Shown here: positions 2,973 to 26,685 of the stretch, piece after piece
Layout of the letters: every line of letters starts with the position of its first letter
Numbering within the stretch: the first letter of the stretch is position 1
DNA from: a virus
IMG/VR virus record: IMGVR_UViG_3300023172_000132
Location: 1 to 29,447 of that record
DNA: 29,447 nucleotides
Direction: 5' to 3' (one strand)
Made by a program: the position numbers and the translations under genes
Notes under the pieces: model-generated
Told to the model about the DNA's origin: nothing
The model's database searches: none
What the model saw: the letters and a program-made list of their open reading frames with translations, nothing else

Positions 2973-3772
2973 AAAATTGGATTTTTCTAAGTAAAGAAAA
3001 AAAGGATCCTTATGTAAACATGTTTGCACAAGGTTGTGGAACCAGTGTGATTGATTCAAACAAGTTTAAATACAACGACGAAGAAATGGAACCAATAGTC
3101 CTAAGAGGAATTCTTAAGAAAAAAATTATTCATAAGTGTTGGGAAAACGGTAGAGATTTTTATTACATTGATACTGGCTATTGGGGTAATGAAAGAACAA
3201 AAACTAATCCTAATGGCTGGAAGTATTGGCATAGAATTGTTAAAAATGATCTACAGCACGGCGAAATAAAAGAAAGACCGAGCGATAGATTTGAATTTTT
3301 TAATAAAAAATTTAGACCTTGGAAAAAGACAGGTAGAAAAATACTTGTTGCTGCTCCGGACGAAAAACCTTGTAAATTTTATGGTATTAATCTTGATGAT
3401 TGGATTGCAACAACAGTTGATACAATAAAAAGAAATACTGATAGGCCTGTAGAAATTAGACAAAGAACTAAACAGAGAATTGATAGATTAAACGATAGTT
3501 TAGAATCTGCACTTGACAATGATGTATTTGCATTAGTAACTTATAATTCAAATGCTGCCGTTGAATCGATATTCCATGGAATACCAGTTTTTACATTAGC
3601 ACCAGCAAATGCTGCAAAACCAGTTGGGCTGAGTGACTTAACAAAAATAAACGAGCCTTACTATCCGGACAAGGATAAATTACATGCGTGGGGATGCCAT
3701 TTATCATATGGACAATTTCACGTTAGTGAATTAAGTTCTGGTAAGGCAAAAAGAATACTGGAGGAACAATGA
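2969..3772 (+). CDS. KpsS/KpsC-like putative glycosyltransferase, paralogue 1 (subfamily A)
   Basis: A 267-residue member of a six-copy family in this window. The C-terminal half carries the capsule-synthesis (GT-B-like) signature YNSNAAVESIFHGIPVF at about 192-208, followed by a PYYPD segment and YGQFHVSEL..GKA near the end. The N-terminal half has the block RDFYYIDTGY, then WHRIVKN and PSDR, shared with the copies at 4451 and 5224. These three form subfamily A, which lacks the RPHP motif seen in the other three. Predicted role: sugar transfer in glycan assembly; donor and acceptor unknown. Every arginine codon I read here is AGA or AGG. It overlaps its neighbours by 4 bp on both sides. Confidence 0.72.
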   Translation: MKNWIFLSKEKKDPYVNMFAQGCGTSVIDSNKFKYNDEEMEPIVLRGILKKKIIHKCWENGRDFYYIDTGYWGNERTKTNPNGWKYWHRIVKNDLQHGEIKERPSDRFEFFNKKFRPWKKTGRKILVAAPDEKPCKFYGINLDDWIATTVDTIKRNTDRPVEIRQRTKQRIDRLNDSLESALDNDVFALVTYNSNAAVESIFHGIPVFTLAPANAAKPVGLSDLTKINEPYYPDKDKLHAWGCHLSYGQFHVSELSSGKAKRILEEQ

Positions 3773-4450: not shown

Positions 4451-5227
4451 ATGAAAGATAGATCGCTTGAAGAATCGTTAGTGGTTGGTTCAAAAGGAAA
4501 GTTTACTACCGATCCTGAAGAAAAAGATAAACCTTTAGTTGTTAGGGGAGTCATCAAGAAGGATCACGTAAACAGATGTATAGACATTAATAGAGATTTT
4601 TACTATATTGATACAGGATATGTTGGAAACTTTCCAAGTCCTGGAAATCCAAGCGGTAAAAAGGTTTGGCATAGAGTTGTAAAAAACGAAAATCAATTGT
4701 CCACGATAAGAAATGTTCCATCGGATCGCTGGGATGCATTGGCTAAACAGGATCCTCGACTTACTTGGAAGGGTTGGAAAAACTATAATAAAAAAATATT
4801 ATTAGTAATGCCTAATCCCAAGGCTTGCAAGTATTATAACTTTGATTATGATACCTGGGTAGCAGAAACAGAACAAAAAATAAAACAGTATAGTGATCTT
4901 CCTGTCGAAGTTAGAATTAAGGGAGCAAGAAGCGAAAGAAATAAGGGTTACACAATTTATGATGCATTTGATAGTGGAGTTTATGCTACCGTTGCTTTTA
5001 ACAGCATAGCGGCTCTTGAATCTGTACTATATGGTATTCCAGCATTTGTTAGCGTTCCCTGTGCGGCAAGTCCTTTAGCATCCACTGACCTTTCTCAGTT
5101 ATCAAACCCGTACAAGCCAGATCAACAAACCATACTAAAACAATGTTACAATATTGCATACGGACAGTTTACCATACAGGAAATTGAAAGCGGTAAGGCT
5201 GTAGAACTAATAGAAAGATACTCATGA
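4451..5227 (+). CDS. KpsS/KpsC-like putative glycosyltransferase, paralogue 2 (subfamily A)
   Basis: A 258-residue protein closely patterned on the product of the gene at 2969. It has RGVIKKDHVNRC, RDFYYIDTGYVGN, KVWHRVVKN and PSDRWDAL in the N-terminal half, then FNSIAALESVLYGIPAF and DLSQLSNPYKPD, and ends with YGQFTIQEIESGKA. The predicted donor-site HP motif is replaced by VEVRIKGARSER. It probably arose by tandem duplication around the intervening GT8-like gene. The start ATG 4451 follows the preceding stop by one base, with GGAAGG just upstream as ribosome binding site. Function as glycosyltransferase is inferred from the C-terminal motif only. Confidence 0.7.
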   Translation: MKDRSLEESLVVGSKGKFTTDPEEKDKPLVVRGVIKKDHVNRCIDINRDFYYIDTGYVGNFPSPGNPSGKKVWHRVVKNENQLSTIRNVPSDRWDALAKQDPRLTWKGWKNYNKKILLVMPNPKACKYYNFDYDTWVAETEQKIKQYSDLPVEVRIKGARSERNKGYTIYDAFDSGVYATVAFNSIAALESVLYGIPAFVSVPCAASPLASTDLSQLSNPYKPDQQTILKQCYNIAYGQFTIQEIESGKAVELIERYS

Positions 5228-6339
5228 AATTATTATTGAACAACAAAGAAATTGCACATTTCTTAAACTCATTATTATCATACAGCGGATATGTTAGACA
5301 GTATGAAATACAAACAAGATACATGTCCACGTTTCTTGATCTATGGGTTGGTAAAAGAAACAAGCAAATCGAAAGAGGGAAAGCCGAACCCTTAACCAAG
5401 GAAGAAAAGAAACAGTTCAAAGATAAATTACAAAAATCAATTAGACAGGATTTGAAAGAATACATTGATACCGTAACAACTACAATGCAGGATAAGAAGG
5501 TAGAAAACTTTCATAAAATACACACCTGCATTGAACAGTTCGTTGAAAAATTTGGTGAAGAGAAAATTTTTGAAGCATATAAGAACAGTAAATTTCGTGA
5601 ATTTGTAAAGGCAACTGGATTTAACATAGATCCCAATGCTCAGTTAATGAGAAGAAAAAACTTTACAAACTACGAAGAAGATTGTCTAATAAGAAATACA
5701 GTTGGTAACGAAGAATTGCTTGTCACCAAGATTGATAAGAAATATCCTTTTTGGTTTATTGATAGTGGATACACAAACTTTCTTGAGCCTAATAAAAAAT
5801 GGCACAGGCTCGTAAGGAATCATCTACACTACGGAGAGTATTTCCAAGCACCCACAGATAGGCTGGGCATTTTTAACAAATATCCCACTGATTGGAGAAA
5901 AGACGGAGATATAATTTATATTATTGAACCTGGACCCTTTGCAGCAAGTATTTTTCATTGCGATTTAAAAACTTGGAAGTATGATGTTGAAAAAGAACTT
6001 AGAAAATATACTGACAAGAAAATAAAATTTAGAGAAAAGAAGCCTCTGAGAGAAAGAACAAATCTTTTTGAAGAACTTAAAAATGATGATTATTATTGTG
6101 TGATCAGCATTAATTCAAATGCAGCAACAGAAGCCATTTGGGCAGGAGTTCCTGCAATCACTCTTGATAAACACGTAACAAATCCTGTGACCAAGAGCAG
6201 TCTTTCTGACATAAATGATTTATACTACGGTCCATTGGGCAATTGGTTAGCATTTCTAAGTTATAATCAATTTACCAAAGAAGAATTAATGAATGGCACA
6301 GCACATAAGTTAGTGAGTAAGTATAATGCCTCAGTATAA
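5224..6339 (+). CDS. KpsS/KpsC-like putative glycosyltransferase with extra N-terminal helical domain, paralogue 3 (subfamily A)
   Basis: At 371 residues this is the longest copy. About 130 extra N-terminal residues are charged and helical (for example LTKEEKKQFKDKLQKS), with no recognisable motif, and may serve as an oligomerisation or partner-binding region. From about residue 140 the subfamily A pattern appears: FWFIDSGYTN, KKWHRLVRNHLHYGEYFQAP, TDR, then INSNAATEAIWAGVPAI and SLSDINDLYYGPL, ending in YNQFTKEELMNGTA. The HP motif is absent (IKFREKKPLRERT in its place). It overlaps the preceding gene by 4 bp and the next by 14 bp. Confidence 0.68.
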   Translation: MKLLLNNKEIAHFLNSLLSYSGYVRQYEIQTRYMSTFLDLWVGKRNKQIERGKAEPLTKEEKKQFKDKLQKSIRQDLKEYIDTVTTTMQDKKVENFHKIHTCIEQFVEKFGEEKIFEAYKNSKFREFVKATGFNIDPNAQLMRRKNFTNYEEDCLIRNTVGNEELLVTKIDKKYPFWFIDSGYTNFLEPNKKWHRLVRNHLHYGEYFQAPTDRLGIFNKYPTDWRKDGDIIYIIEPGPFAASIFHCDLKTWKYDVEKELRKYTDKKIKFREKKPLRERTNLFEELKNDDYYCVISINSNAATEAIWAGVPAITLDKHVTNPVTKSSLSDINDLYYGPLGNWLAFLSYNQFTKEELMNGTAHKLVSKYNASV

Positions 6340-7249
6340 AGCAGTAGCATATATCAGCGGAATTCCTTCAAGGAATAATAATCCAGAAAAACCTATGATT
6401 CTTAATAACTTCATTGAAGGAGTTAACAAGAGTGGAGATATAGGAGTGTTACATCAGGGGTTTAATGTTATTGAAAGTGATGTTGCACTTATACAAGGAT
6501 TTGTACACGAACACGGTAAGACTGCTCCTCACCTTGTGTTAAGACAAAACGCAGTAAATTTTCAAAAGCAAAGAAATAAAAAATCTCTCATAGTTGACAG
6601 TAATTTATTTTTGTATGCAGATCCAGGCAATTCAAAAAGATATTTAAGATACAGTTTTGATGGAGTATTTCCAACAACAGGATTTTATTTTGATAAGGAT
6701 GTTGATCCAACAAGATGGCAAAAGATAAGTGCTAATCTAAGTTTACAACTTAAACCTTGGAGACAGAGTGGCGAACACATCTTGCTCTGTTTACAAAGGA
6801 ATGGTGGTTGGTCTATGAAGGGTCTTCACGTAATGCAATGGATGGACAGCATTATAACCGAAATTAGAAAATACAGCCAAAGACACATTATAGTGAGAGC
6901 GCATCCTGGAGATAAAAAATCACACACATATCTTCGTATCAATCATCCTAATGTTTCATTAAGCAACAAGCCTAACATTAAACACGATTTAGAAAAAGCA
7001 TGGGCAACTGTTGTATATAATAGTTCACCAAGTGTAGCAAGTATTATTGAGGGTGTACCTGCATTTATAACTGATCCTCAACCTGAATATAGCCAAAGCA
7101 AGGAAGTTGCTAATACGGATTTATCTAAAATAGAAAATCCAGAATTACCTGAAAGACAACAATGGATAGAAAAACTTGCCATGTGCCATTGGAACTTTGA
7201 TGAACTAAAAAGTGGCGAAGCGTGGCAATTTTTTAGAAAGTATCTTTAA
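6326..7249 (+). CDS. KpsS/KpsC-like putative glycosyltransferase, paralogue 4 (subfamily B)
   Basis: A 307-residue capsule-synthesis-like protein. It has the subfamily B features: EHILLCLQRNGGWS strand, IIVRAHPGDKK (the R-x-HP motif typical of KpsS/CDP-glycerol transferase-like GT-B enzymes), VYNSSPSVASIIEGVPAF, DLSKIENPELPERQQW and a C-terminal CHWNFDELKSGEAW. That C-terminal pattern is shared with the copies at 8531 and 15011. The start codon lies 14 bp inside the preceding gene. It is the last gene of the plus-strand block, and its stop overlaps the stop of the minus-strand gene at 7246 by 4 bp. Confidence 0.74.
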   Translation: MPQYKAVAYISGIPSRNNNPEKPMILNNFIEGVNKSGDIGVLHQGFNVIESDVALIQGFVHEHGKTAPHLVLRQNAVNFQKQRNKKSLIVDSNLFLYADPGNSKRYLRYSFDGVFPTTGFYFDKDVDPTRWQKISANLSLQLKPWRQSGEHILLCLQRNGGWSMKGLHVMQWMDSIITEIRKYSQRHIIVRAHPGDKKSHTYLRINHPNVSLSNKPNIKHDLEKAWATVVYNSSPSVASIIEGVPAFITDPQPEYSQSKEVANTDLSKIENPELPERQQWIEKLAMCHWNFDELKSGEAWQFFRKYL

Positions 7250-8530: not shown

Positions 8531-9388
8531 ATGAAGTTCAAACTCTATCGTGAATACGGTGCACTCAATAGTCCACAAGTTTTTAATGCATTTGAATTAG
8601 GATTGAAAGCATTAGGACACGAAATAGTAAACAAAGACGAAGATGTATCGGTCATATGGTCAGTTCTCTGGCATGGCAGGATGGCGTCAAATCTAAATGT
8701 TTATCATGAGTGTAAACAAAAAAATAGACCTTTACTAATTATTGAAGTTGGTAATTTTAAAAGAAATATCACCTGGAGAATATGTCTCGATCATATTAAC
8801 GGATTAGGAGAATTTGCTAACGATGAAAATCTTGATGCCGACCGTCCTAAAAAATTAGGCATTGAACTAAAACCATTTAATGAAAAAAGAAAAAAAGCAA
8901 TACTGATTGCAACACAGCATAACAAGAGTTTACAATGGGAGGGAATGCCGACCATGAGCAACTGGGTTTCAAATTTAATTGAGACAATTCAAAGAAAATG
9001 TGAATACCCCATCTACATCAGACCTCATCCTCGATGTCCTCTTCCTGGAATAGAACACGAATACAGAAATGTTTTTAGACAAACTCCTCAACACATTAGA
9101 GGAAGTTATGATGACTTTGATATTGATTATGATTATCATGTCGTAATAAATCATAACAGCGGACCCCCCATACATGCAGCAATTGCTGGAACTCCGGTCA
9201 TTTGTGATAGTTCAAGTTTAGCACATCCAGTTTCTTGTACAATGGATGACATTAAAGATCCATATCTTCCTGATAGAGAAGATTGGCTTATAAAATTATC
9301 TCACGCCGAGTGGACATTAGAGGAAATTTCTAACGGAATTCCAGTAAAACGGTTAGAAAAAAGCATTCTAAAACAAATTAATTCTTGA
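8531..9388 (+). CDS. KpsS/KpsC-like putative glycosyltransferase, paralogue 5 (subfamily B)
   Basis: A 285-residue protein with the subfamily B plan: an N-terminal Rossmann-like region (DVSVIWSVLWHGRM, PLLIIEVGNFKR), the donor-site motif YIRPHPRCPL, then VINHNSGPPIHAAIAGTPVI where the usual NSNAAVES block is altered to NSGPPIHA, and SCTMDDIKDPYLPDREDW, ending in AEWTLEEISNGIPV. The conserved C-terminal block supports common ancestry with the copies at 6326 and 15011. Ribosome binding site AGGAAA precedes ATG 8531. It stands alone between the minus-strand pair and the promoter of the uvsW unit, and is probably driven by the late box at 8498. Confidence 0.74.
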   Translation: MKFKLYREYGALNSPQVFNAFELGLKALGHEIVNKDEDVSVIWSVLWHGRMASNLNVYHECKQKNRPLLIIEVGNFKRNITWRICLDHINGLGEFANDENLDADRPKKLGIELKPFNEKRKKAILIATQHNKSLQWEGMPTMSNWVSNLIETIQRKCEYPIYIRPHPRCPLPGIEHEYRNVFRQTPQHIRGSYDDFDIDYDYHVVINHNSGPPIHAAIAGTPVICDSSSLAHPVSCTMDDIKDPYLPDREDWLIKLSHAEWTLEEISNGIPVKRLEKSILKQINS

Positions 9389-9419: not shown

Positions 9420-10595
9420 ATGGCAATTAGATACATAGAAGACATTTTTATAGATTTTGCTGATACCTTATCACAAAATGGTATTGGAATACAACCTCAT
9501 GACAGGTCAGCAACCTATAGTTTCTATCAAAATATAAGAGACGGAAATCAAATTACGCAGAACCAAGCAAATTATATTCTTAAGTTGCTTGACAAGTACA
9601 AGAATGTCGTAGAACCTTATTTTAATTATAAGGACGATATTATAAATCCCATATGGAAAAAACCATTTAGAGTTTTAGATCTTTCTAAAAAAATATGGGT
9701 GGAAAATGACGATGGGTCTGTATGGGTATGTTTAAAATTTCCATACCAACTCAAGGAAACGTTTGAGGAAGAATTTAAGGATACGCTGTATGATAGAACT
9801 CACATATGGGATCAACAAAGAAGAATAAGAAAGTGTTCTCTTTATGAATGGAATTTGATAGCACTTTATGAATTTGCTAAGAAGCACGAATTTGAAATTG
9901 ACGACACGTTTGTTGAAGCAATGTCCTTAGTAGAGGAAGTATGGAATAATCAAGAATCCTTTATTAAAAAATCCATGATTAAAAATTCTGAAGTTATTTT
10001 AAAAAATGCCACGGACGAATCTCTTGAATATTTTCAAACGCACAAAATTGGTAATATACAGAATGATTTGATGTTGGCTAAATCAATGGGGCATTGTTTT
10101 GACGGTCCTACAAATACCATTGTGGAAAAAATTTGTTCAAATGAAACAAATCATTTCTGGATTAAAAATCAAAAACAATTGCTTGAATTAGTTTATAGCG
10201 TGGAAGGAAAGACCTGTATAATTTTAGATAGAACGAGCAACGTTGAGGAATGGATTAAATCTTTATCGGAAGTTATTGAAAATGAAAATTACAATCCAAA
10301 AGATTTCAGAGTCTGTTTTAGAACTTCCAATAAAGACAATCCAGAATTTAACGATTGGGTTAGAGATAAAGGTTTTGGAGGAAAAATCGACACCGCAAAG
10401 GTATTAATATTTCAATTTAAACCAGCAAAGTGGTTGTTTAAATCGCAAAACTATGCTACAATAGTAGCAAGTAATAATTTATATCCGACAACTAATACAA
10501 CGGTAAGAGCCATGTTTAAATCTCATCCTTGTGTTTTATATGTTGGAGACATACAACCGTCAATGAATAGGAAGGAAAATATTGTCGAACTGTAA
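9420..10595 (+). CDS. Conserved-type phage protein upstream of uvsW, function unknown
   Basis: A 391-residue protein. The N-terminal segment ITQNQANYILKLLDKYK resembles a short helical motif I have seen in several phage replication proteins, followed by PFRVLDLSKKIWVE and WVCLKFPYQLKETF. The C-terminal third has alternating strands (TCIILDRTS, FRVCFRTS, AKVLIFQF, YATIVASNN, PCVLYVGD) that look like the second half of a helicase-type or Rossmann-like domain, but I find no Walker A or DEAD-type motif. A degenerate helicase-related protein or helicase partner is possible. Start is ATG 9420; the longer TTG-initiated frame from 9390 would run through the promoter. It overlaps uvsW by 14 bp. Confidence 0.68.
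   Translation: MAIRYIEDIFIDFADTLSQNGIGIQPHDRSATYSFYQNIRDGNQITQNQANYILKLLDKYKNVVEPYFNYKDDIINPIWKKPFRVLDLSKKIWVENDDGSVWVCLKFPYQLKETFEEEFKDTLYDRTHIWDQQRRIRKCSLYEWNLIALYEFAKKHEFEIDDTFVEAMSLVEEVWNNQESFIKKSMIKNSEVILKNATDESLEYFQTHKIGNIQNDLMLAKSMGHCFDGPTNTIVEKICSNETNHFWIKNQKQLLELVYSVEGKTCIILDRTSNVEEWIKSLSEVIENENYNPKDFRVCFRTSNKDNPEFNDWVRDKGFGGKIDTAKVLIFQFKPAKWLFKSQNYATIVASNNLYPTTNTTVRAMFKSHPCVLYVGDIQPSMNRKENIVEL
10569..10576 (+). promoter_or_regulatory. Strong ribosome binding site deciding a TTG start for uvsW
   Basis: AGGAAGGA lies five bases before TTG 10582. An in-frame stop at 10564-10566 rules out any upstream start, and no ATG occurs before the conserved N-terminus, so the TTG is the best start. 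Confidence 0.7.
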
Positions 10596-12036
10596 ACTTA
10601 TAATAAAGGATGAAGTCAACATCAAATTTGAAGGGTTGGCTGTTGAGACACGAAGAAAGATCGTTAATAAATTAAAATACGATCTGCCTTATGCTCGACA
10701 CATGCCAGCATTTAAACTTGGAAGATGGGACGGAACCGTAAGTTTCTTTGGTATTGGTGGCAATGGATTTCTTGCACACCTTGACATCATATTACCTATA
10801 GTTGAGAATGACGGTTATGATATTGAAGTTATTGATAACAGAAATAACGAACAATTTTCTTTTGATGAAATAACTGAAAACTATTGGGCAGATCAAAATA
10901 AAGTATGGCCAAAAGGACATCAACTTGAAGGCCAGCCTATCGTACTAAGAGATTATCAGTATGATGTTGTTAATCAGTTTTTAAAAAATCCACAATCTTT
11001 ACAAGAAGTTGCGACAGGTGCTGGTAAAACAATTACCACAGCAACGTTAAGCCATTTATGCGAGCCGTATGGTCGAACTATGGTAATTGTTCCTAATAAG
11101 AGTCTTGTGGTACAAACCGAAGAAGACTATAAAAACTTAGGATTGGATGTTGGTGTATATTTTGGTGACCGCAAAGAATTAAATCATACACACACAATTT
11201 GTACTTGGCAAAGTCTTAATGTATTAGACAAAAAGAGTTATGATAGCGATAGTTTAACACTCGCAGAATTTACAGAAGGTGTAAGAGCTGTCATAATTGA
11301 TGAAGTCCATCAAGCCAAAGCCGATGTTCTTAAAAAGTTACTAACAGTTAATTTTAGAAATGCGCCTATTAGATGGGGATTAACTGGAACCGTACCAAAG
11401 GAACAATGGGAATTCCAAGGCATACTTGCAGGAATAGGTCCGGTGATTAACAATGTATCCGCACACGATCTACAGGAAAAAGGAGTGCTGGCTAAACTTG
11501 ACATACAAATACTACAAACAAAGGATATTGAAGAATTCCGTAACTATCAGGAAGAATATACTTGGTTAGTTACTGACGAGAAAAGATTAAGATACATCGG
11601 TGATCATGTAAAAGCGGTTGCTAAGAATGGTAACACGCTTGTCTTGGTCAATAGAATCGATACTGGCAAAAAACTATTAAAGAACGTACCGGAAGCAACA
11701 TTTATTAAGGGAGATGTGAAACTTGACGAACGCAAAGAACAGTATGACGAAATTAAAACTTCGGATGGTAAAATCATTATTGCCACTTACGGTGTTGCTG
11801 CTGTGGGTATTAATATTCCAAGAATTTTTAATCTCGTCCTCATTGAGCCTGGCAAGTCTTTTGTTAGAGTAATTCAAAGTATAGGCCGCGGAATTAGAAA
11901 AGCAGAAGACAAAGACTTTGTGCAAATTTGGGATATAACATCAACCTGCAAATATGCAAAAAGACATTTAACAGAAAGAAAAAGATTTTATAGAGAGGCG
12001 AAATATCCTCACACAGTCACAAAGGTAAACATATGA
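10582..12036 (+). CDS. uvsW: UvsW superfamily 2 helicase
   Basis: RNA-DNA and DNA-DNA helicase of the T4 UvsW type, which unwinds R-loops and branched DNA and helps the switch to recombination-dependent replication. The 484 residues carry an N-terminal UvsW-like domain (FKLGRWDGTVSFF, comparable with the T4 YGNWDGRIRLL segment), Walker A ATGAGKT at 144-150, DEVH at 240-243, LTGT at 267-270, and motif VI QSIGRGIRK around 432-440. Length is close to T4 UvsW (about 500 aa). Translation begins at TTG with a strong upstream ribosome binding site. The stop overlaps the FkbM methyltransferase start by 4 bp. Confidence 0.95.
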   Translation: MSNCKLIIKDEVNIKFEGLAVETRRKIVNKLKYDLPYARHMPAFKLGRWDGTVSFFGIGGNGFLAHLDIILPIVENDGYDIEVIDNRNNEQFSFDEITENYWADQNKVWPKGHQLEGQPIVLRDYQYDVVNQFLKNPQSLQEVATGAGKTITTATLSHLCEPYGRTMVIVPNKSLVVQTEEDYKNLGLDVGVYFGDRKELNHTHTICTWQSLNVLDKKSYDSDSLTLAEFTEGVRAVIIDEVHQAKADVLKKLLTVNFRNAPIRWGLTGTVPKEQWEFQGILAGIGPVINNVSAHDLQEKGVLAKLDIQILQTKDIEEFRNYQEEYTWLVTDEKRLRYIGDHVKAVAKNGNTLVLVNRIDTGKKLLKNVPEATFIKGDVKLDERKEQYDEIKTSDGKIIIATYGVAAVGINIPRIFNLVLIEPGKSFVRVIQSIGRGIRKAEDKDFVQIWDITSTCKYAKRHLTERKRFYREAKYPHTVTKVNI

Positions 12037-14334: not shown

Positions 14335-15014
14335 TAATAATTGATAAACACAACTACAACATACAGCACTTTCATGATGCTCAACAAATAACACAGAATA
14401 TTCCTTTTGAACAGATGAAGTTTGAATATGCTGTTAATGAAAGATTAAATCATTTGAAACATTCAATGGAGCAAGTAAAAATTGCTGGAAGTATATTGGA
14501 ATTTGGTGTTTATCAAGGTACTACTATCAACGAAATTAGTTCTTTCTTTTCAGAAGATACCGTGCATGGTTTTGATAGTTTTGAAGGATTGCCTGAGAAC
14601 TGGATTACACGAAATAAAGAAAGATACAAGAATAGAATTAAGCGTCCTAAGGGATTCTTTGCCTTAGATCAATTACCGGAAGTAAACAAAAATGTTAAAT
14701 TATGGAAGGGATGGTTTGATCAAACAATTATAAAATATAAGCAGGAAGAAAATCCAAAGCAGATTAAATTTCTTCATGTAGATGGTGATCTATATGGTAG
14801 TGCAAAAGTTATATTTGATAATTTGTCACACTGCATAATTCCTGGAACCATAATTGTATTCGATGAATTTTATCCTTGGGGTCCGACTGTTTATGACACA
14901 TGGGCCGATCACGAATACTTGGCGTTTAAAGAATTTGTTGAAAAAGAAAATAGACAGTTTACAATTATAAGCAGGAATAATCATCAACAAACTTGTGTAA
15001 AAATTATTAAATGA
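14331..15014 (+). CDS. TylF/MycF-like O-methyltransferase
   Basis: A 227-residue class I methyltransferase of the macrocin-O-methyltransferase type, which methylates sugar hydroxyls using SAM and a divalent metal. Motif I ILEFGVYQGTT is at 55-65, HGFDSFEGLPENW at 79-91 is diagnostic of the family, the metal-site block HVDGDLY is at 149-155, and IIVFDEFYPWGP follows at 174-185. Length is normal for the family (220-260 aa). It overlaps both neighbours by 4 bp, between a GT-A-like and a KpsS-like gene, which makes a sugar substrate likely. Confidence 0.88.
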   Translation: MIIIDKHNYNIQHFHDAQQITQNIPFEQMKFEYAVNERLNHLKHSMEQVKIAGSILEFGVYQGTTINEISSFFSEDTVHGFDSFEGLPENWITRNKERYKNRIKRPKGFFALDQLPEVNKNVKLWKGWFDQTIIKYKQEENPKQIKFLHVDGDLYGSAKVIFDNLSHCIIPGTIIVFDEFYPWGPTVYDTWADHEYLAFKEFVEKENRQFTIISRNNHQQTCVKIIK

Positions 15015-15925
15015 AAATAGTAGCAATAAAAGAACTAATGTGGACTTATCATCCTATTCCCTCGTCTGTAGAGGTTGTTGATTTTTCTAATAAGAAAAAA
15101 ATTAATTCTGCGGACATATTGTTACAAACAAATATTAAGGGCGGCAAGAGAGAAAAGAAACTTGGAAACATCTATCAATATGTAATAGATAGCGGTAAAC
15201 CTTTTATATGTGTAGAGTCAGCAGTGTTTAGAAGAAACATGCCAACACCACCACATCCTATGGCATATCATAGATGGAGTTGGACCAGTTATTTTCAAGA
15301 TGATGGAGATTATTGCAACAACAATAGCCCTTCTGATAGATGGGATCAAATCAGAACTGATCAGAACATAGAAATAAAAGAATGGAATGCCTCGGGAGAT
15401 TATATTCTTGTTGTATTACAAAGACCCGGCGATACGAGCCTAACTAAATTAATTGCCAAGCACGGAAGTTATGAAAACTTTGTGTCCTATACAATAAATG
15501 AAATTAGAAAAAATACTGATAGAAAGATAGTAATTAGACCGCATCCAAGCAGAAAAGATGCACAAATAAAAATTATCGAATCATTAAATCTTAAGGGTAT
15601 TAGAATTAGTGATACACCGTCAAAAGAAGGTTCCATATCAGGAGGTGACGGTTTATATAAAGATTTCAGCAATGCATATGCAGTTGTAGGATTTAATTCA
15701 AATGCACTAACAGAAAGTGTATGTGAAGGAATACCAACTTTTAGTATGTGTCCAAGTTCAATGGCATGGGATGTTTCAAATAAGTCTTTGCAATATCTTG
15801 AAAATCCTATTTTGTTTGAAAGACAACAGTGGTTAAATAATCTTGGTTATTGCCAATGGAGAGAAGATGAATGCTTGGAAGGCAAACCTCTTACACACTT
15901 ATTAAAAAAATATTCGGAGAAATAA
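15011..15925 (+). CDS. KpsS/KpsC-like putative glycosyltransferase, paralogue 6 (subfamily B)
   Basis: A 304-residue member of the family. Recognisable blocks are PFICVESAVFRRNM, YILVVLQRPGDTSL, KIVIRPHPSRKDA (donor-site HP motif), VGFNSNALTESVCEGIPTF, SLQYLENPILFERQQWLNNL and CQWREDECLEGKPL. It is closest in plan to the copy at 6326, although separated from it by almost 8 kb and the uvsW unit. It overlaps the TylF-like gene by 4 bp and directly abuts the GSCFA gene. It probably adds a residue to the same type of glycan as the first cluster. Confidence 0.78.
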   Translation: MKIVAIKELMWTYHPIPSSVEVVDFSNKKKINSADILLQTNIKGGKREKKLGNIYQYVIDSGKPFICVESAVFRRNMPTPPHPMAYHRWSWTSYFQDDGDYCNNNSPSDRWDQIRTDQNIEIKEWNASGDYILVVLQRPGDTSLTKLIAKHGSYENFVSYTINEIRKNTDRKIVIRPHPSRKDAQIKIIESLNLKGIRISDTPSKEGSISGGDGLYKDFSNAYAVVGFNSNALTESVCEGIPTFSMCPSSMAWDVSNKSLQYLENPILFERQQWLNNLGYCQWREDECLEGKPLTHLLKKYSEK

Positions 15926-18472: not shown

Positions 18473-18940
18473 ATGGCAGGACAAGGCTTAAAATTAAATG
18501 AAATACTCGCAGCCGTTGACATGAATGCAAAGCATATATGGGACGAACTGAACGAGGAACAGCGCAAGAGTATCGTTTTTTATACTCTTAATCGCTATAT
18601 AAGCAGCGTACAAGGCTCAAGAGAAGATAAGGAGCACTTTGTGCTGCTTGGAAATGAAAGATTTAATAAAAACCTATTTTTACTGCTGAATAAACATCCA
18701 AAATTACTCTGGCAATTGGCATGCAGTTGTGGCCATGAGTCAAAGAAAATATTTTTCCACAAGTGGTTAAAGTTAATCAAGGAAAAAAATAAGAAGGAAC
18801 AGTTTCTCGCAGACCTATTTCCTAACATGAAGATGGCTGATATTGCTACCATGGCAAAAATTACCTCGGATAAGGAAATTAAGGAATACTGTAAGGAACT
18901 TGGATGGGATAAGAAGCAGGTCAATGACATCAAACTATAA
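18473..18940 (+). CDS. 62: Clamp-loader small subunit gp62
   Basis: A 155-residue protein matching the small subunit of the T4 sliding-clamp loader (gp44/gp62), which loads the gp45 clamp on DNA. Recognisable pattern: TLNRYISSVQGSREDKEHFVL, NKHPKLLWQLACSCG, FHKWLKLIK and LFPNMKMADIATMAK. It is shorter than T4 gp62 (187 aa), in line with my memory of marine T4-like phages. The partner gp44 gene is not in this window. ACAGGAC upstream of ATG 18473 is a plausible ribosome binding site. It overlaps the zinc-finger gene by 17 bp. Confidence 0.82.
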   Translation: MAGQGLKLNEILAAVDMNAKHIWDELNEEQRKSIVFYTLNRYISSVQGSREDKEHFVLLGNERFNKNLFLLLNKHPKLLWQLACSCGHESKKIFFHKWLKLIKEKNKKEQFLADLFPNMKMADIATMAKITSDKEIKEYCKELGWDKKQVNDIKL

Positions 18941-19607
18941 GTGTACCTACTGCGAAAAATCATTTACCAGAGAAAAAACTCTGCTGGTGCATGTCTGTGA
19001 ACAAAAGAGACGATACCTTTCCAGAGACGAAAAGCATGTCCAGTTAGCACTGTTAACTTACCAACGCTTTTACGAAATTTCTCAGAAAAACGCCAAGAAA
19101 AAAACATTCGACGATTTTGCAACGAGTCCTTACTATAATGCATTCGTTAAGTTTGGCAGTTTCATGTCCAACACAGCACCCATATATCCAGAAAAGTTTA
19201 TAGACTTTGTAATTAAGAGCGGAGTTAAGTTAGATCATTGGTGCAGAGACGAATTATATGACACTTATGTACAAGAATTGATAAAGATCGAACCAGCAGA
19301 CGGTGCAATACAGAGAACAATACAAACAATGATGGACTGGGCAGATAACAAGGAAGCACAGTGGACTCATTATTTCAAATATGTTAATCTTAATAGAGCA
19401 ACACACGATATCAAGGAAGGAAAGATATCTCCTTGGTTACTCTTGAACACAAAATCCGGCAAGGAAATGTTGCAGAATTTTAACGACGAACAACTTGAGA
19501 TAGTATCTCCAACGATTGATCCAACCTTTTGGATGCAGAGATTCAAAAAATATCCGGCGGATATGGAATTGGTAAAAGACATCATAAAGGAAGCGAAATT
19601 ATCCTAA
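18924..19607 (+). CDS. C2HC zinc-finger phage protein, function unknown
   Basis: A 227-residue protein with an N-terminal zinc-finger-like motif C7-x2-C10-x12-H23-x-C25 (YKCTYC through HVC), followed by RRYLSRDEKHVQLALLTYQRF, KTFDDFATSPYYNAFVKFGSF and a C-terminal ISPWLLLNTKSGKEML and PTIDPTFWMQRFKKYPAD. I recall this arrangement next to clamp-loader genes in T4-like phages, without a known function; DNA binding is a reasonable guess from the finger. The start ATG 18924 is directly before the finger and inside gp62; the longer frame from 18843 is out-of-frame sequence of gp62. Confidence 0.78.
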   Translation: MTSNYKCTYCEKSFTREKTLLVHVCEQKRRYLSRDEKHVQLALLTYQRFYEISQKNAKKKTFDDFATSPYYNAFVKFGSFMSNTAPIYPEKFIDFVIKSGVKLDHWCRDELYDTYVQELIKIEPADGAIQRTIQTMMDWADNKEAQWTHYFKYVNLNRATHDIKEGKISPWLLLNTKSGKEMLQNFNDEQLEIVSPTIDPTFWMQRFKKYPADMELVKDIIKEAKLS

Positions 19608-19810: not shown

Positions 19811-20379
19811 AACAGGGAGTCATAATAAGTTTCACTGGTGTTGGTTATCAACTTGGTGGAATACAGACGGAGGAGTTTCGAAAGATTAAATCTTTCAAAA
19901 ATTATGATAATTTATTTTTTATTGATAAAAGCAAGAGTTGGTTTAACAATGTTGATACTGACGAAATAATTGAAAAGATAAAAATGTACGAGAATGTAAT
20001 TACTTTAGGAAATAGCATGGGAGCATTTAGTGCGATAATGTTCGCAAAGTATTATCCTGTAAAAAAAGCAATTGCATTTGCTACACAGTACAGCCTACAT
20101 CCTGACATAGTACCGTGGGAAGAGAGATGGAATGGGTATCAAAAAATTATTTCTGAAAAATATGGATGGAAAAATAAACATTTAGAATTTAATGATAAAA
20201 CAAAGTATTATATAATAAGTGGAAACGATAAAGAAGATAAAAAACACATTGACATGATTCCTAAAAAATCTAATATTAAAAAAATAGTAATTCAAGGAGC
20301 CAATCATGGTGTGGCAAAATACCTTAAAGAACAGAATAAACTTTATCCTCTAATAGAAGAAATTATAAACGATGCCTGA
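19807..20379 (+). CDS. Alpha/beta-hydrolase-fold protein
   Basis: A 190-residue putative hydrolase. The nucleophile elbow is GNSMGA at 68-73 with Ser70, followed by a helix (FSAIMFAKYYP) as expected. ISGNDKEDKKH (D141 or D144) fits the acid position and GANHGVAKYL (H167) the catalytic histidine, so the triad appears complete. The short length is typical of small esterase or thioesterase-like members. Possible substrates include acyl groups on a glycan or lipid. It lies between a small gene and the polymerase III-like gene with 4-bp and 8-bp overlaps, and is probably an accessory insertion in the replication region. Confidence 0.78.
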   Translation: MKQGVIISFTGVGYQLGGIQTEEFRKIKSFKNYDNLFFIDKSKSWFNNVDTDEIIEKIKMYENVITLGNSMGAFSAIMFAKYYPVKKAIAFATQYSLHPDIVPWEERWNGYQKIISEKYGWKNKHLEFNDKTKYYIISGNDKEDKKHIDMIPKKSNIKKIVIQGANHGVAKYLKEQNKLYPLIEEIINDA

Positions 20380-20950
20380 TATTGATATAGATTTTATAGA
20401 TAGGGAACAAGCACTTTCACATTTTAAATATGTGAAAGCCAGCAGGGAAGATGACGGAAAACTCGTCAAGCATAACACTGGCGTTTACATGCACGAAGTT
20501 CCATTGAACGCCTTAGAAAATGTTTGTGCTATTCCGTATGAAGAGGCAGAAGAACAAGGACTGTTTAAGATTGATTTCTTAAATGTCACACTGTATTCAG
20601 GTATAAAAAATGAACAACATCTTAATCAATTAATGGAAAGAGAACCTCTATGGGAACTACTCGAACAGGACGATTTCACAGACTTGCTGTTTCACGTCAA
20701 CGGACATGGAAAGATATTAAGACAGATGAAACCAAACACAATACCACAACTGGCAGCAGTTCTGGCAATGATAAGACCAGCGAAGAGACATTTGATTGGT
20801 CAACCATGGGACACGGTTCTAAGAGAAGTGTGGACAAAACCTGAAGGTGACGAATACTTCTTCAAGAAGTCACATGCAACAGCATATGCGGTTGCTGTGG
20901 TTGTACAAATGAACTTAATATGTGAACAAGTGAGTCATCAGCATCCATGA
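20372..20950 (+). CDS. Miniature DNA polymerase III alpha-like (C-family) protein
   Basis: A 192-residue protein with landmarks of the catalytic core of bacterial DNA polymerase III alpha in the same order. PDIDIDFIDR at 2-11 corresponds to the palm motif containing two catalytic aspartates (PDFDVDF in E. coli), KHNTGVYMHEV at 33-43 to the segment after it, GLFKIDFLNV at 63-72 to the third aspartate (KFDFLGL), and IPQLAAVLAMIRPAKRHL to the following conserved helix. The polymerase is normally over 1,100 residues, so thumb, exonuclease, clamp-binding and most finger regions are missing. I recall similar short proteins in T4-like cyanophages. Whether it is catalytic is unknown. Confidence 0.72.
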   Translation: MPDIDIDFIDREQALSHFKYVKASREDDGKLVKHNTGVYMHEVPLNALENVCAIPYEEAEEQGLFKIDFLNVTLYSGIKNEQHLNQLMEREPLWELLEQDDFTDLLFHVNGHGKILRQMKPNTIPQLAAVLAMIRPAKRHLIGQPWDTVLREVWTKPEGDEYFFKKSHATAYAVAVVVQMNLICEQVSHQHP

Positions 20951-21186
20951 CAAATTACGAATTTGAAGATTACAGAAATAACGAGCCGCCAAGAATGGGG
21001 TCTTGGCCATTTTGGATCGTTCCGGAATTCTATGCTCTGAGTTATCTGATAAGAATGGCAATTATACTGGTGGCATTGCCCATGCTGTTTGGAATACAAT
21101 TGACTCCGGTGGGACTGTTCTTTATGTTTTTAATCTTTGATTATTTTACGTATGTGGGACTTAAGAAGGTTTACGGACTAAAGTGA
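20947..21186 (+). CDS. Small membrane protein
   Basis: A 79-residue protein with a polar N-terminus (about 20 residues, NEPPRMGSWPFW) and two hydrophobic stretches, roughly 31-48 and 52-66, that probably form a membrane hairpin. A basic end (LKKVYGLK) suggests a cytoplasmic C-terminus. No family is recognised. ATGA overlap with the preceding stop supports the start. Its tail overlaps the minus-strand gene at 21161 by 26 bp. Confidence 0.65.
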   Translation: MTNYEFEDYRNNEPPRMGSWPFWIVPEFYALSYLIRMAIILVALPMLFGIQLTPVGLFFMFLIFDYFTYVGLKKVYGLK

Positions 21187-21532
21187 TGCTCTTTCTTTTA
21201 ACTCTTTTTATGATGATATTGTTAAGACTTGTTACAGGACCAAGTATTATTTTAACATCTTTTGTGGTATAATTTCTAATGGCGTACTTAAAAGCAGAAA
21301 TTTCGTTTCTTAAAAAAATGTTGATAGGGATTTGTCTATTTGACTCCCACCACCATGCTTCGCCCAGCTCTAATAACCTTTCTTTTTCGGCGTCAGTTTC
21401 CAATGCTTCGTAATCATAGAAACTGGTCACGTTGGAGTCTTGGTTAATGATTATACCAACGTATTCCTTATCTGCGTGTGTTAAAACGCTTATAAAAGGG
21501 AAATTTTCCTGTAAGTTTTTTGTTATTCTCAT
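21161..21532 (-). CDS. Conserved-type phage hypothetical protein
   Basis: A 123-residue protein, MRITKNLQENFPFISVLTH at the start, then EYVGIIINQDSNVTSFYDY, ELGEAWWWESNRQIPINIFL and LGPVTSLNNI. The WWWESNRxIPINIFL block is familiar to me from marine T4-like phage proteins of unknown function. I start at ATG 21532; a GTG at 21544 would add four residues. It is the only minus-strand gene in this part and is divergent from the possible virion gene at 21565. Confidence 0.65.
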   Translation of the reverse strand: MRITKNLQENFPFISVLTHADKEYVGIIINQDSNVTSFYDYEALETDAEKERLLELGEAWWWESNRQIPINIFLRNEISAFKYAIRNYTTKDVKIILGPVTSLNNIIIKRVKRKSITLVRKPS

Positions 21533-21534
21533 CG

Positions 21535-21542
21535 ATAAATAC
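21535..21542 (+). promoter_or_regulatory. T4-late-type promoter box (plus)
   Basis: GATAAATAC matches the late box TATAAATA at 7 of 8 positions. It lies 22 bases before ATG 21565, in the 32-bp gap between divergent genes, and suits late expression of a structural gene. Confidence 0.5.
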
Positions 21543-21564
21543 ACAAAAGGGTTATGTTTTTCAT

Positions 21565-22401: not shown

Positions 22402-23421
22402 ATGACACTCGTAATCGATAAATTCACAAGTCTGATGCCACCTCGAGCCAAAAAAAGCCCGAGCGGATGGACATCATTCAATGCCCCTTGCTGTCATCAT
22501 AGAGGACATAGTCACGATAAAAGAAAGCGTGGGGGTGTGCGTTTTGATACGGGTGTCGTGTACAATTGTTTTAATTGTAAATTTACTGCAAGTTGGCAAC
22601 CTGGAAGACAACTTTCAGAAAAATTTAAATCCTTGTGTAGATGGTTAGGTGCATCCGAAGATACAATTAATCAAATGATATTTGAAGCACTGAAGACCGA
22701 ATCTCCAGAATACGAACCCAGAGAATCACAGGCAAGAATAACCTTTTCTGAAAAGCAATTACCAGAACACAGTTTGCCTATATCAGAATGGTTGGAAGTT
22801 GATTTTAAAGATAACAAAGAAGATGAACAGAACTTGGCAAAGGTTGTGGAATACATTTATGACAGAGGATTTGATCCTCTGAGTAAAAACTTTTATTGGT
22901 CACCATTAGAAGGATATAATGACAGGGTGATTATGCCTTTTTATTACAATGGAAAAATTGTCGGCAATACCGCACGTAAAGTAAGAAGCGGAAGACCCAA
23001 GTATCTTAGTGATCATCATCCACAGTTTGTTTTTAATGTTGATGCACAAACCGAGGATCAGAAGTATATTTTTGTGACTGAAGGTCCTTTTGATGCACTG
23101 TCCATTAACGGTGTAGCATTGCTAACAAACAATATTTCAGAACAACAGTTTAGAATAATACAAAGTCTTGGTCATGAAGTTATAGTAATACCAGATCAAG
23201 ACGAGGCAGGACTTTCTTTAATTAAGAAAGCAGAAGAATATGGCTGGAGTGTTGCTTTTCCTAACTGGGATGTAGAAGTTAAGGATGTTGCTGATGCTGT
23301 CAACAGATACGGAAAACTATTTGTTATCGTTGATGCAATAAAAACAGCACAGGCCGGATCTATTAAACTTTCTGTTGCAAGGAAAAATCTTGAACAAAAA
23401 TTTATTAAGGAGATGGCATGA
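22402..23421 (+). CDS. 61: DNA primase gp61
   Basis: RNA primer-making subunit of the T4-type primosome, partner of gp41. The N-terminus holds a zinc-binding module: Cys30/Cys31 and His33 or His36, then C56-x2-C59 (YNCFNC). The TOPRIM catalytic domain follows, with the acidic EGPFDA (E227, D231) and PDQDEAG (D265, D267). The 339-residue length equals that of T4 gp61 (342 aa). No ribosome binding site is evident before ATG 22402. The stop overlaps the 33-aa gene by 4 bp (ATGA). Confidence 0.93.
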   Translation: MTLVIDKFTSLMPPRAKKSPSGWTSFNAPCCHHRGHSHDKRKRGGVRFDTGVVYNCFNCKFTASWQPGRQLSEKFKSLCRWLGASEDTINQMIFEALKTESPEYEPRESQARITFSEKQLPEHSLPISEWLEVDFKDNKEDEQNLAKVVEYIYDRGFDPLSKNFYWSPLEGYNDRVIMPFYYNGKIVGNTARKVRSGRPKYLSDHHPQFVFNVDAQTEDQKYIFVTEGPFDALSINGVALLTNNISEQQFRIIQSLGHEVIVIPDQDEAGLSLIKKAEEYGWSVAFPNWDVEVKDVADAVNRYGKLFVIVDAIKTAQAGSIKLSVARKNLEQKFIKEMA

Positions 23422-23519: not shown

Positions 23520-23752
23520 CCGAATTTAGGGTTGGTATATTTAATCTTATTAAAAAATTAATAGGACACAGCAGTTTTGCAAGGGCTGTGATTTATACCA
23601 TAGGACACATTGTCATTGCGATGACATGCAATAGATTAATTACGGGTGCAGACTTAGAACTTGCTGCTCTCGACGCACTTATAGAACCTATCATTAACGG
23701 TGGTTGGTTTTATTTGTTAGATAAACTTTACACGAGTACACACAATAGATGA
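23516..23752 (+). CDS. DUF2061-like small membrane protein
   Basis: A 78-residue membrane protein with a basic N-terminal segment and two probable membrane helices around 24-39 and 49-66. The pattern RAVIYTIGHIVIAMTCNRLITG, then ALDALIEPIINGGWFYLLDKLY, fits the DUF2061 family of small bacterial membrane proteins. The role is unknown. ATGA overlaps with genes on both sides tie it to the primase and carbamoyltransferase genes in one unit. Confidence 0.7.
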   Translation: MTEFRVGIFNLIKKLIGHSSFARAVIYTIGHIVIAMTCNRLITGADLELAALDALIEPIINGGWFYLLDKLYTSTHNR

Positions 23753-25221
23753 TAACATGGGGAATAGCCGCTAACAGCCACGACGGTTCGTTAGCGGTAT
23801 TTGACAACAACGAATTAGTATTTGCCAGCCATACTGAACGATTCAGTGGACTTAAGAACGATCCCCATTTAAATAAAGGAATACTTGACTATGCAAGACA
23901 ATGGGGGGAACCAAACGAAGTTATTTGGTACGAGAAACCTTTCAAGAAGACTGTAAGGCAACTTTATGCAGGTCAAGGTTGGAACTGGAATGAAAATAAT
24001 GTTAAGACATACCTAAAACAATTTAACATTAATGCACCCATAGGTTACAGTAGCCATCACGAAAGCCATGCTGCGGCAGGATATTATACCAGCAAATTTA
24101 GTGATGCAACTGTACTTTGCATAGATAGCATAGGTGAATGGGAGACTCTTACAATATGGGAAGGCAAGGGAGACAAACTAACAAAAGTATTTTCGCAGGA
24201 ATATCCTAACAGTATAGGTTTATGGTATAGTGCTATGACCCAAAGGGTCGGACTTAAACCCAACGAGGATGAATACATTCTCATGGGCATGAGTGCATAC
24301 GGTGATGTAAGAAAACACTACGATCATATGCGTGAAACATTTTTTGAATTGGGTCCTCATAGCCATTGGACTTTTCCTAACGTCAACTTTAAAAAAAATT
24401 TACACAGAGGATGTAAGTGGTATTTGGAAGGTTACAATAGATGGACCGATAAACTTAACATTGCAGCCGCAACTCAAAGCATATACGAAGATATATTTTT
24501 AGGGTTAGTTGAATATTGTCACAAAACCTACAAGAGCAAGAACTTGGTTGTGATGGGAGGCTGTGCGTTAAACTGTAAGGCAAACAGCAAGGCATACGCT
24601 TACTATGATAACATATGGATAATGCCTAATCCGGGTGATGCAGGGTCAAGTGTAGGTGCTGTTTTAGCAAAGAAACAAAAACACATACAATGGAAGAGTC
24701 CATATTTAGGATACGACATCGTAGGTGAATATCCGGTGGATGATCTATTTAGAGAATTAAAAGACACAGGTATTGTGGGCGTTGCAAATGGAAGAGCAGA
24801 ATTTGGTCCAAGAGCATTAGGCAATAGGAGTTTACTTGCGGATCCGCGAGGCAAGGACATGAAGGACAAGGTGAACAAGATTAAAAAGAGGCAGAGATAT
24901 CGTCCATTTGCTCCTGTAATCTTGGCAGAGCATGCTGAAAAATATTTTTATGGAGATATAGGACCTTACATGCAGTTTACGGCCAAATGCAGAAAACAAG
25001 ATGACTTTCCTGCCATAGTTCACGTGGACGGAACTTCCAGAGTACAAACAGTTACCAAAAGCGATCATCCTGGTTTAAGAGATCTTTTGGAACGTTGGTA
25101 TGCCAAAACAGGCTGTCCAATGTTATTGAATACCAGTTTAAATATTAAAGGAAAACCCATGGTAAATGATGAAAAGGATGCAAAAAAGTTTGCTCACAAG
25201 TATGGTGTGAGTGTATACTAA
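23749..25221 (+). CDS. Carbamoyltransferase (NodU/CmcH/TobZ family)
   Basis: A 490-residue O-carbamoyltransferase that would move a carbamoyl group from carbamoyl phosphate, via an adenylate, to a hydroxyl on a sugar or similar compound. The N-terminal Kae1-like domain starts GIAANSHDGSLAVF and carries SHHESHAAAGYY (H103, H104, H107) as the metal and substrate histidines. DSIGEWETLTIW and MGMSAYG follow. The YrdC-like C-terminal domain has GRAEFGPRALGNRSLLADPR and ends with LLNTSLNIKGKPMV. Length is slightly below cellular relatives (about 550-600 aa) but both domains are complete. The family is known in nodulation factor and antibiotic synthesis. Position between primase and helicase genes suggests cargo acquired into the replication operon. 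Confidence 0.93.
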   Translation: MITWGIAANSHDGSLAVFDNNELVFASHTERFSGLKNDPHLNKGILDYARQWGEPNEVIWYEKPFKKTVRQLYAGQGWNWNENNVKTYLKQFNINAPIGYSSHHESHAAAGYYTSKFSDATVLCIDSIGEWETLTIWEGKGDKLTKVFSQEYPNSIGLWYSAMTQRVGLKPNEDEYILMGMSAYGDVRKHYDHMRETFFELGPHSHWTFPNVNFKKNLHRGCKWYLEGYNRWTDKLNIAAATQSIYEDIFLGLVEYCHKTYKSKNLVVMGGCALNCKANSKAYAYYDNIWIMPNPGDAGSSVGAVLAKKQKHIQWKSPYLGYDIVGEYPVDDLFRELKDTGIVGVANGRAEFGPRALGNRSLLADPRGKDMKDKVNKIKKRQRYRPFAPVILAEHAEKYFYGDIGPYMQFTAKCRKQDDFPAIVHVDGTSRVQTVTKSDHPGLRDLLERWYAKTGCPMLLNTSLNIKGKPMVNDEKDAKKFAHKYGVSVY

Positions 25222-25254: not shown

Positions 25255-26685
25255 ATGGCAACTACTAAGAATTACGATTACGAAGTCCAAAAAGTATATT
25301 TGGAAATGATGCTGAATGACGCAGAAACATTTGTGCGTTGTCAGGGCATTTTTGATCACACGTTGTTTGATAGAAAACTACAGGATGCCGCACAGTTCAT
25401 AAATGAATATACAAAGCAGTATAACGTAATGCCTGACTATGAAACAGTAAATGCAAGTTGTAGAACAGACTTAACAAGACCGTTGGATGTTAAGGAAGGT
25501 CATATGCAATGGTTAATGGATGACTTTGAAAGTTTTACAAGGCACAAGGCACTGGAACGTGCAATTATTAATTCAGCAGATTTATTAGAAAAGAATGACT
25601 ATGGCCAAGTGGAATCAATGGTCAAGGAAGCAGTGCAGATTGGTTTGGCACGTGATATGGGAACAGACTACTTTGCTGATCCGCGTGGTAGATTGATGGG
25701 GCTGAAGGATAAGAATGGACAGGTAAGCACTGGTTGGGCAACCATGGATAAGAAATTGTTTGGTGGATTCAACAGGGGTGAACTTAATATTTTTGCAGGA
25801 GGTTCAGGTGCAGGTAAATCGTTGTTTCTTGCAAACTTGGGCGTGAACTGGGCACTACAGGGATTGAATGTTGTTTATCTAACACTGGAACTTTCAGAAC
25901 ACTTGGTTAGTATGCGTGTTGATTCGATGACCACAGGCATTAGCACAAGAGACATTTTCAAGAACATCGATGATGTTGAAATGAAAGTCAAAATGATTGG
26001 TAAGAAGTCAGGTGCATTGCAAGTCAAGTATATGCCAAGTGGTAAGACAGCCAATGACATTAGAGCATACCTAAAGGAATACGAAATTAAGACTGGCAGA
26101 AGGGTTGATGTACTGTTGGTTGATTATCTTGATTTATTAATGCCAATTGGAAAAAGAATTAGTGCAGAAAACTTGTTTGTCAAGGACAAGTATGTGTCGG
26201 AAGAACTGCGTAACTTAGCGATGGAATTACAGTGTGTATTTGTAACTGCGGCACAGTTAAACAGAGGTGCAGTTGAAGAAGTAGAATTTGATCACTCGCA
26301 CATATCAGGAGGATTAAGTAAGATTCAAACTGCTGACAACGTATTTGGTATTTTTACAAGTCGTGCAATGCGTGAGCGTGGACGCTATCAAATACAGTTA
26401 ATGAAAACAAGAAGTAGTTCTGGAGTTGGACAAAAAGTTGATCTTGAATTTAATATCGATACTTTAAGAATTACGGATCTTCCGGAAGAAGAACAAGAGT
26501 CATACAATGGTAATAACAGAGGCAGCAGCAGTATTATAGATTCGATCAAGAGAAAAACAGAAGTTCAAGGCACCCCATCAGATGATCCCACACAGGGAGC
26601 ATCCTTAGGCAAAGTAAGAGGTAAAGTAGAATCTACTAAACTTCGAGAAATATTGGGTAACATGGGTGCTGATGATGAACTCTAA
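25255..26685 (+). CDS. 41: Replicative DNA helicase gp41 (DnaB-like)
   Basis: Hexameric 5'-3' helicase of the T4 primosome. The N-terminal domain (about 1-150) is helical. The RecA-like core has GGFNRGELNIFAGGSGAGKSLF with Walker A around 183-189, TLELSEHLVSMRVD, Walker B LLVDYLDLL with D290, FVTAAQLNR for the sensor/H3 glutamine, and SGGLSKIQTADNVFGIF. The 476 residues equal T4 gp41 (475 aa). It uses many CGT arginine codons, as uvsX does. It begins after a 33-bp gap behind the carbamoyltransferase gene and overlaps the next small gene by 14 bp. Confidence 0.95.
   Translation: MATTKNYDYEVQKVYLEMMLNDAETFVRCQGIFDHTLFDRKLQDAAQFINEYTKQYNVMPDYETVNASCRTDLTRPLDVKEGHMQWLMDDFESFTRHKALERAIINSADLLEKNDYGQVESMVKEAVQIGLARDMGTDYFADPRGRLMGLKDKNGQVSTGWATMDKKLFGGFNRGELNIFAGGSGAGKSLFLANLGVNWALQGLNVVYLTLELSEHLVSMRVDSMTTGISTRDIFKNIDDVEMKVKMIGKKSGALQVKYMPSGKTANDIRAYLKEYEIKTGRRVDVLLVDYLDLLMPIGKRISAENLFVKDKYVSEELRNLAMELQCVFVTAAQLNRGAVEEVEFDHSHISGGLSKIQTADNVFGIFTSRAMRERGRYQIQLMKTRSSSGVGQKVDLEFNIDTLRITDLPEEEQESYNGNNRGSSSIIDSIKRKTEVQGTPSDDPTQGASLGKVRGKVESTKLREILGNMGADDEL

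Follow-up and report, generated by a model that had tools for sequence, protein, structure and literature searches.

A divided DNA polymerase III alpha has already been predicted in large phages. For the group 2.2 jumbo phages, Iyer et al. (2021; PMC7824862) proposed a minimal version of the enzyme that is split into C-terminal and N-terminal units, corresponding to phrog_11778 and phrog_11127, respectively; earlier genome papers recognised the N half only, as an alpha subunit (PMC5259590, PMC6102473). We found no biochemical or experimental follow-up of the split Pol III alpha in the open-access papers searched. For the bacterial enzyme, D401, D403 and D555 form the catalytic triad of E. coli DnaE, while D405 is invariant in DnaE and replaced by Asn in PolC (PMC3919608). 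H760 is the proposed steric gate that selects deoxyribose and is invariant in Pol III alpha (PMC8485763).

We analysed a window of 29,447 nucleotides from an uncultivated phage (IMG/VR record IMGVR_UViG_3300023172_000132). One of its genes is an ordinary member of this known predicted system, the two-unit arrangement of which has been in print since 2021:

20372..20950, plus strand: 192 aa, probably the C-terminal unit of a minimal DNA polymerase III alpha split in two (assigned from phrog_11778, the structural model and the residue map)

The reading that we favour is that this ORF probably encodes the C-terminal part of a minimal DnaE-type polymerase made of two chains in T4-related jumbo phages, where it would have an accessory role. 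Homology, complementary pieces, co-occurrence, active-site conservation, purifying selection and replication gene context support it. To the published prediction we add the exact break point between the halves, an invariant steric-gate histidine, a correction of the catalytic residues and a conserved replisome neighbourhood.

The ORF has an ATG start and overlaps the stop of the preceding gene. In the 192-aa protein, PDIDIDF occupies residues 2-8 and KIDFLN residues 66-71, in the same order as in DnaE. The protein matches phrog_11778 ('DNA polymerase') over the full length of the profile (E=6.4e-62; residues 3-186 on profile positions 8-194 of 197). A match to the long DnaE profile phrog_405 (E=1.5e-8) bears out the kinship that the preliminary description had proposed, and NCBIfam polc also matches (E=1.4e-4). 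Judged from these three profiles, the resemblance to DnaE is not a chance one. In Pfam only DNA_pol3_finger gave a weak, sub-threshold hit (0.053), with no other Pfam domain in the protein. A sequence search of the PDB was also weak (best E 0.042 with the single protein and 0.0064 with a profile), so that structural comparison is the clearer evidence. Nearly all viral-contig relatives begin with MPDIDIDF, often with in-frame stops 0-6 codons upstream, which argues that the DxDxD strand is the true start of the protein; isolate copies start up to 18 residues earlier than the window protein.

The window ORF is short, running from the DxDxD strand to just past the KSHxxxY helix. It has no counterpart of the PHP domain, the thumb, the HhH motif, about 88 residues of the fingers, or the clamp-binding, OB and C-terminal domains. 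The GS motif is not in the protein either, as its start lies after that motif, which is found on a separate partner protein. The statement in the preliminary description that almost everything else of the enzyme is gone is therefore correct for the ORF itself, but part of the missing region is encoded by another gene in related phages.

We aligned the protein to E. coli DnaE. D3, D5 and D68 correspond to the catalytic triad D401, D403 and D555, and D7, K66 and H168 correspond to D405, K553 and H760. The aspartate motifs noted previously are thus present in DnaE order, and their aspartates are invariant in all 66 aligned family sequences, but the catalytic set is D3/D5/D68 rather than the D5/D7/D68 first assigned, D7 being the equivalent of D405. 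That DnaE-specific aspartate is kept in 66/66 sequences, which makes the protein DnaE-like and not PolC-like. The steric-gate position, H168, is likewise histidine in every one of them, and the KSHxxxY helix around it is kept. The full set of invariant residues comprises D3, D5, D7, H34, G37, K66, D68, R135, P136, K138, H168 and Y172 (66/66). Because 21 of these sequences were fetched without use of the aspartate motif, the invariance is not a selection effect. The spacing between these residues shows where the enzyme has been shortened: D7 and H34 are 27 residues apart, compared with 106 in E. coli (D405-H511), as the thumb region is lost, and R135 and H168 are 33 residues apart, compared with 121 (R639-H760), as most of the fingers are lost. 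The segment that carries R709/R710 in E. coli is among the approximately 88 missing fingers residues.

An AlphaFold2 model of the 192-aa protein, built from 45 input rows, reached a pLDDT of 89.7, and its top Foldseek matches were C-family polymerases only. With VIA-align, 189 of the 192 residues were placed on Taq Pol III alpha 461-841 (Z 9.4, rmsd 3.6) and 187 on E. coli DnaE 400-781 (Z 8.5); these Z values are middling by VIA-align's own yardstick, yet the alignment extends over the entire protein and is in line with the sequence matches. The best unrelated chain reached Z 3.5. The whole model thus aligns on the palm and fingers of DnaE, and of the checks named in the preliminary description the profile match to DnaE is likewise borne out.

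The other half of the active site is found elsewhere in the same phage genomes, where PF07733, the Pol III alpha NTPase domain, matches a separate and distant short ORF. The encoded partner, phrog_11127, is about 155-182 aa long, carries a conserved GxGRGSxxxS motif and ends with EF-[LF]-[KRNE]. By profile it matches E. coli DnaE 318-393, and its model (pLDDT 91.2) superimposes on E. coli DnaE 278-393 with Z ~10 and on other C-family chains with Z values of up to 12. The partner ends at DnaE position 393 and the 192-aa protein begins at 399/400, so the two pieces are complementary and do not overlap. In the structural comparison, residues 1 to ~64 of the partner (encoded at L120:4001-4504) have no DnaE counterpart; from the model, they may be a module peculiar to these phages, with a possible role in binding another replisome component.

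Both halves were present in 11/11 isolate genomes examined and in six long viral contigs, while in several long contigs with the 192-aa gene, the largest of 280 and 199 kb, the partner was not matched; these contigs may be incomplete. A six-frame search of the 29 kb window, which is a genome fragment, did not reveal the partner half. The halves were never found fused or adjacent, with no N half in 91 loci of the C half and no C half in 80 loci of the N half. In GAP32, RaK2 and Atu_ph07, the partner gene is close to the one for the gp44 clamp loader. The preliminary description had offered a miniature nucleotidyl-transfer enzyme, a decoy or a regulator, readings that all take the protein to be self-contained. 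The DnaE homology and the aspartates behind that proposal stand, but we rejected a self-contained nucleotidyltransferase: this protein lacks the GS half of the active site, which a second gene, broken at the corresponding point, encodes in related genomes.

The gene is conserved in phages. Using tblastn, we found phrog_11778-type genes in 65 phage records, including Rak2-like jumbo phages as well as PA5oct, Atu_ph07, Phosso, XacN1, SCTP-2 and others, and at least 554 IMG/VR stretches encode relatives of the 192-aa protein. The window copy is ~32-51% identical to isolate copies and up to 84% identical to those on other viral contigs. When 84,980 species genomes were searched for a cellular origin, only 10 matches were obtained, nearly all in metagenome-assembled bins; these are probably phage contigs binned along with cellular ones.

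Such a small protein could be the decaying fragment of a once full-length phage DnaE, and its size relative to DnaE is what would suggest so. The selection data contradict this: the ORF is intact in 91/91 loci examined, with near-fixed start and length, and dN/dS is ~0.05-0.12 in related pairs with measurable divergence (one near-identical pair gave 0.26). By these sequence measures the protein belongs to a conserved family under purifying selection. We rejected a pseudogene on the basis of dN/dS and the near-fixed length, and regard decay as scarcely credible.

The same conservation bears on the idea that the protein imitates host DnaE and, as a decoy or inhibitor, captures host Pol III subunits. 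Phages do shut off host replication, and the protein does resemble DnaE. Nevertheless, what is conserved is the active site, and the protein is missing the regions that DnaE uses for partner binding: the PHP domain, which binds epsilon, and the clamp-binding, OB and C-terminal parts. In a decoy one would not expect an unvarying triad, lysine and steric-gate histidine, a complementary half that accompanies it, or clustering with phage replication genes. We rejected it on the conservation pattern and the missing partner-binding domains, and consider it very improbable.

Returning to the half-polymerase reading, the gene lies in a replication cluster. The window carries the T4-like set of UvsX, UvsY, UvsW, primase and DnaB helicase, and the order of the cluster is UvsX, UvsY, UvsW, a zinc-finger-like protein, the 192-aa gene, phrog_11637, a structural protein, the primase and the DnaB helicase. 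The genes that recur around the half-polymerase are as follows:

10582..12036, plus strand: UvsW-like helicase (phrog_16, E=2.1e-80; 52/91 loci, a count limited by locus length)
18843..19607, plus strand: upstream neighbour with a C2H2-like zinc-finger motif (phrog_11058, E=2.5e-67; 89/91 loci)
21161..21544, minus strand: convergent downstream neighbour (phrog_11637, E=7.8e-36; 89/91 loci, always on the opposite strand)
22402..23421, plus strand: DNA primase, Toprim, gp61-like (phrog_47, E=1.4e-34, Toprim_2; 81/91 loci)
25255..26685, plus strand: DnaB-like replicative helicase, gp41-like (phrog_19, E=2.3e-72, DnaB_C; 70/91 loci)

phrog_11058 is a core gene of this cluster, and the tight linkage of phrog_11637 suggests a functional or regulatory tie to the half-polymerase gene. 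In XacN1 (L086) and RAS14 (L090), the neighbourhood of the half-polymerase differs from that of the other nine isolates, so that linkage to the primase and helicase is not universal.

Other genes of the window also drew our attention. Between the primase and the helicase, a carbamoyltransferase (Carbam_trans_N and _C; 23749-25221) perhaps serves base or sugar modification. Six mutually related proteins (2969-3772, 4451-5227, 5224-6339, 6326-7249, 8531-9388 and 15011-15925), ~19-40% identical by blastp, are scattered through the replication cluster. By eye they stand among sugar- or nucleotidyl-transferase-like genes, the five that were scanned had no Pfam match, and a role in surface-sugar or DNA modification is possible.

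We propose that the two chains come together and restore a single nucleotidyltransferase active site. The 192-aa protein would supply the metal-binding palm strands and shortened fingers with the steric-gate helix, thereby holding two metals and an O-helix-like steric gate, while the partner would contribute the initial portion of the palm and, through its GS motif, bind the dNTP triphosphate. Coexistence with a B-family polymerase, as the preliminary description had surmised, is confirmed in relatives: full-length PolB is found in 18/19 related records, the window being too short to show its own. The two-chain enzyme would be an accessory polymerase beside this family B replicase, acting in repair, gap filling or primer extension, and an accessory role is more likely than bulk replication. 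Lacking thumb, PHP, clamp-binding and C-terminal domains, it would be suited to short or recruited synthesis, and is probably distributive or recruited by another replisome protein. We see an even chance that the 192-aa and ~155-180-aa proteins form an active C-family polymerase beside the family B replicase with neither thumb nor PHP domain. With the thumb and ~88 fingers residues gone, including the R709/R710 segment, binding of DNA and dNTP might be too weak for polymerization. To our knowledge, the pair, if active, would be smaller than any known C-family polymerase.

These losses also fit a replisome subunit that retains the two-chain fold of DnaE without polymerizing, and that instead binds dNTP, metal or primer ends and regulates or tethers the family B polymerase or the clamp loader. 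The loss of the thumb and most of the fingers, the full PolB in the same genomes and the clustering with replication genes all agree with such a subunit. We nevertheless hold it to be unlikely, as none of the 66 sequences departs from the triad, the active-site lysine or the steric-gate histidine, a constancy that a non-catalytic role would hardly account for. Another option is that the two chains form a nucleotidyltransferase for a different reaction, such as untemplated tailing, short primer synthesis or transfer onto protein or RNA. The pol-beta-type NT fold serves many transfer reactions, short fingers and a missing thumb would suit a small or unusual substrate, and a primase gene is close by; the retained H760 equivalent and KSHxxxY helix, however, point to dNTP use, and we judge this option to be quite improbable.

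An accessory two-chain polymerase, if real, would define the minimum that a C-family polymerase needs as two pieces encoded in trans, and would explain why a bacterial-type polymerase is kept by phages with a family B polymerase of their own.

We finally compared the locus with known polymerases. With bacterial DnaE (E. coli DnaE and Taq Pol III alpha; 2hnh, 2hpi, 3e0d), the window protein has in common the palm and fingers fold and the residues D401/D403/D555, D405, K553 and the H760 steric gate. The split system differs from it in being without the PHP, thumb, HhH, OB and C-terminal domains, in having fingers ~88 residues shorter and in dividing the palm between two proteins. Actinophages likewise make a C-family polymerase from more than one gene. 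Microbacterium phage Anakin genes 56/57 (L201:4974-8325) encode a PHP-domain protein (PF02811, E=3.8e-35) and a palm-fingers-HhH protein, and Wollypog 56/59 and TinyMiny 61/63 (L202, L203) have the same gene layout. We rejected a split at the same site, since in Anakin the break separates the PHP domain from a palm-fingers-HhH polymerase that is otherwise full, whereas in the jumbo phages it falls within the palm. A yardstick from the literature is PolX of African swine fever virus: pared down to the NT fold and a fingers subdomain (PMC11646218), this viral polymerase offers a precedent for such reduction, but it belongs to the X family and is a single chain. The closest match is the system of Iyer et al., with which the window shares a short Mg- and DNA-template-binding unit in the same kind of phage; the distant N-terminal NTP-binding gene and the family B polymerase that complete the likeness are seen in relatives only. 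Apart from its source in an uncultivated phage, we found no feature that distinguishes the window copy from that system.
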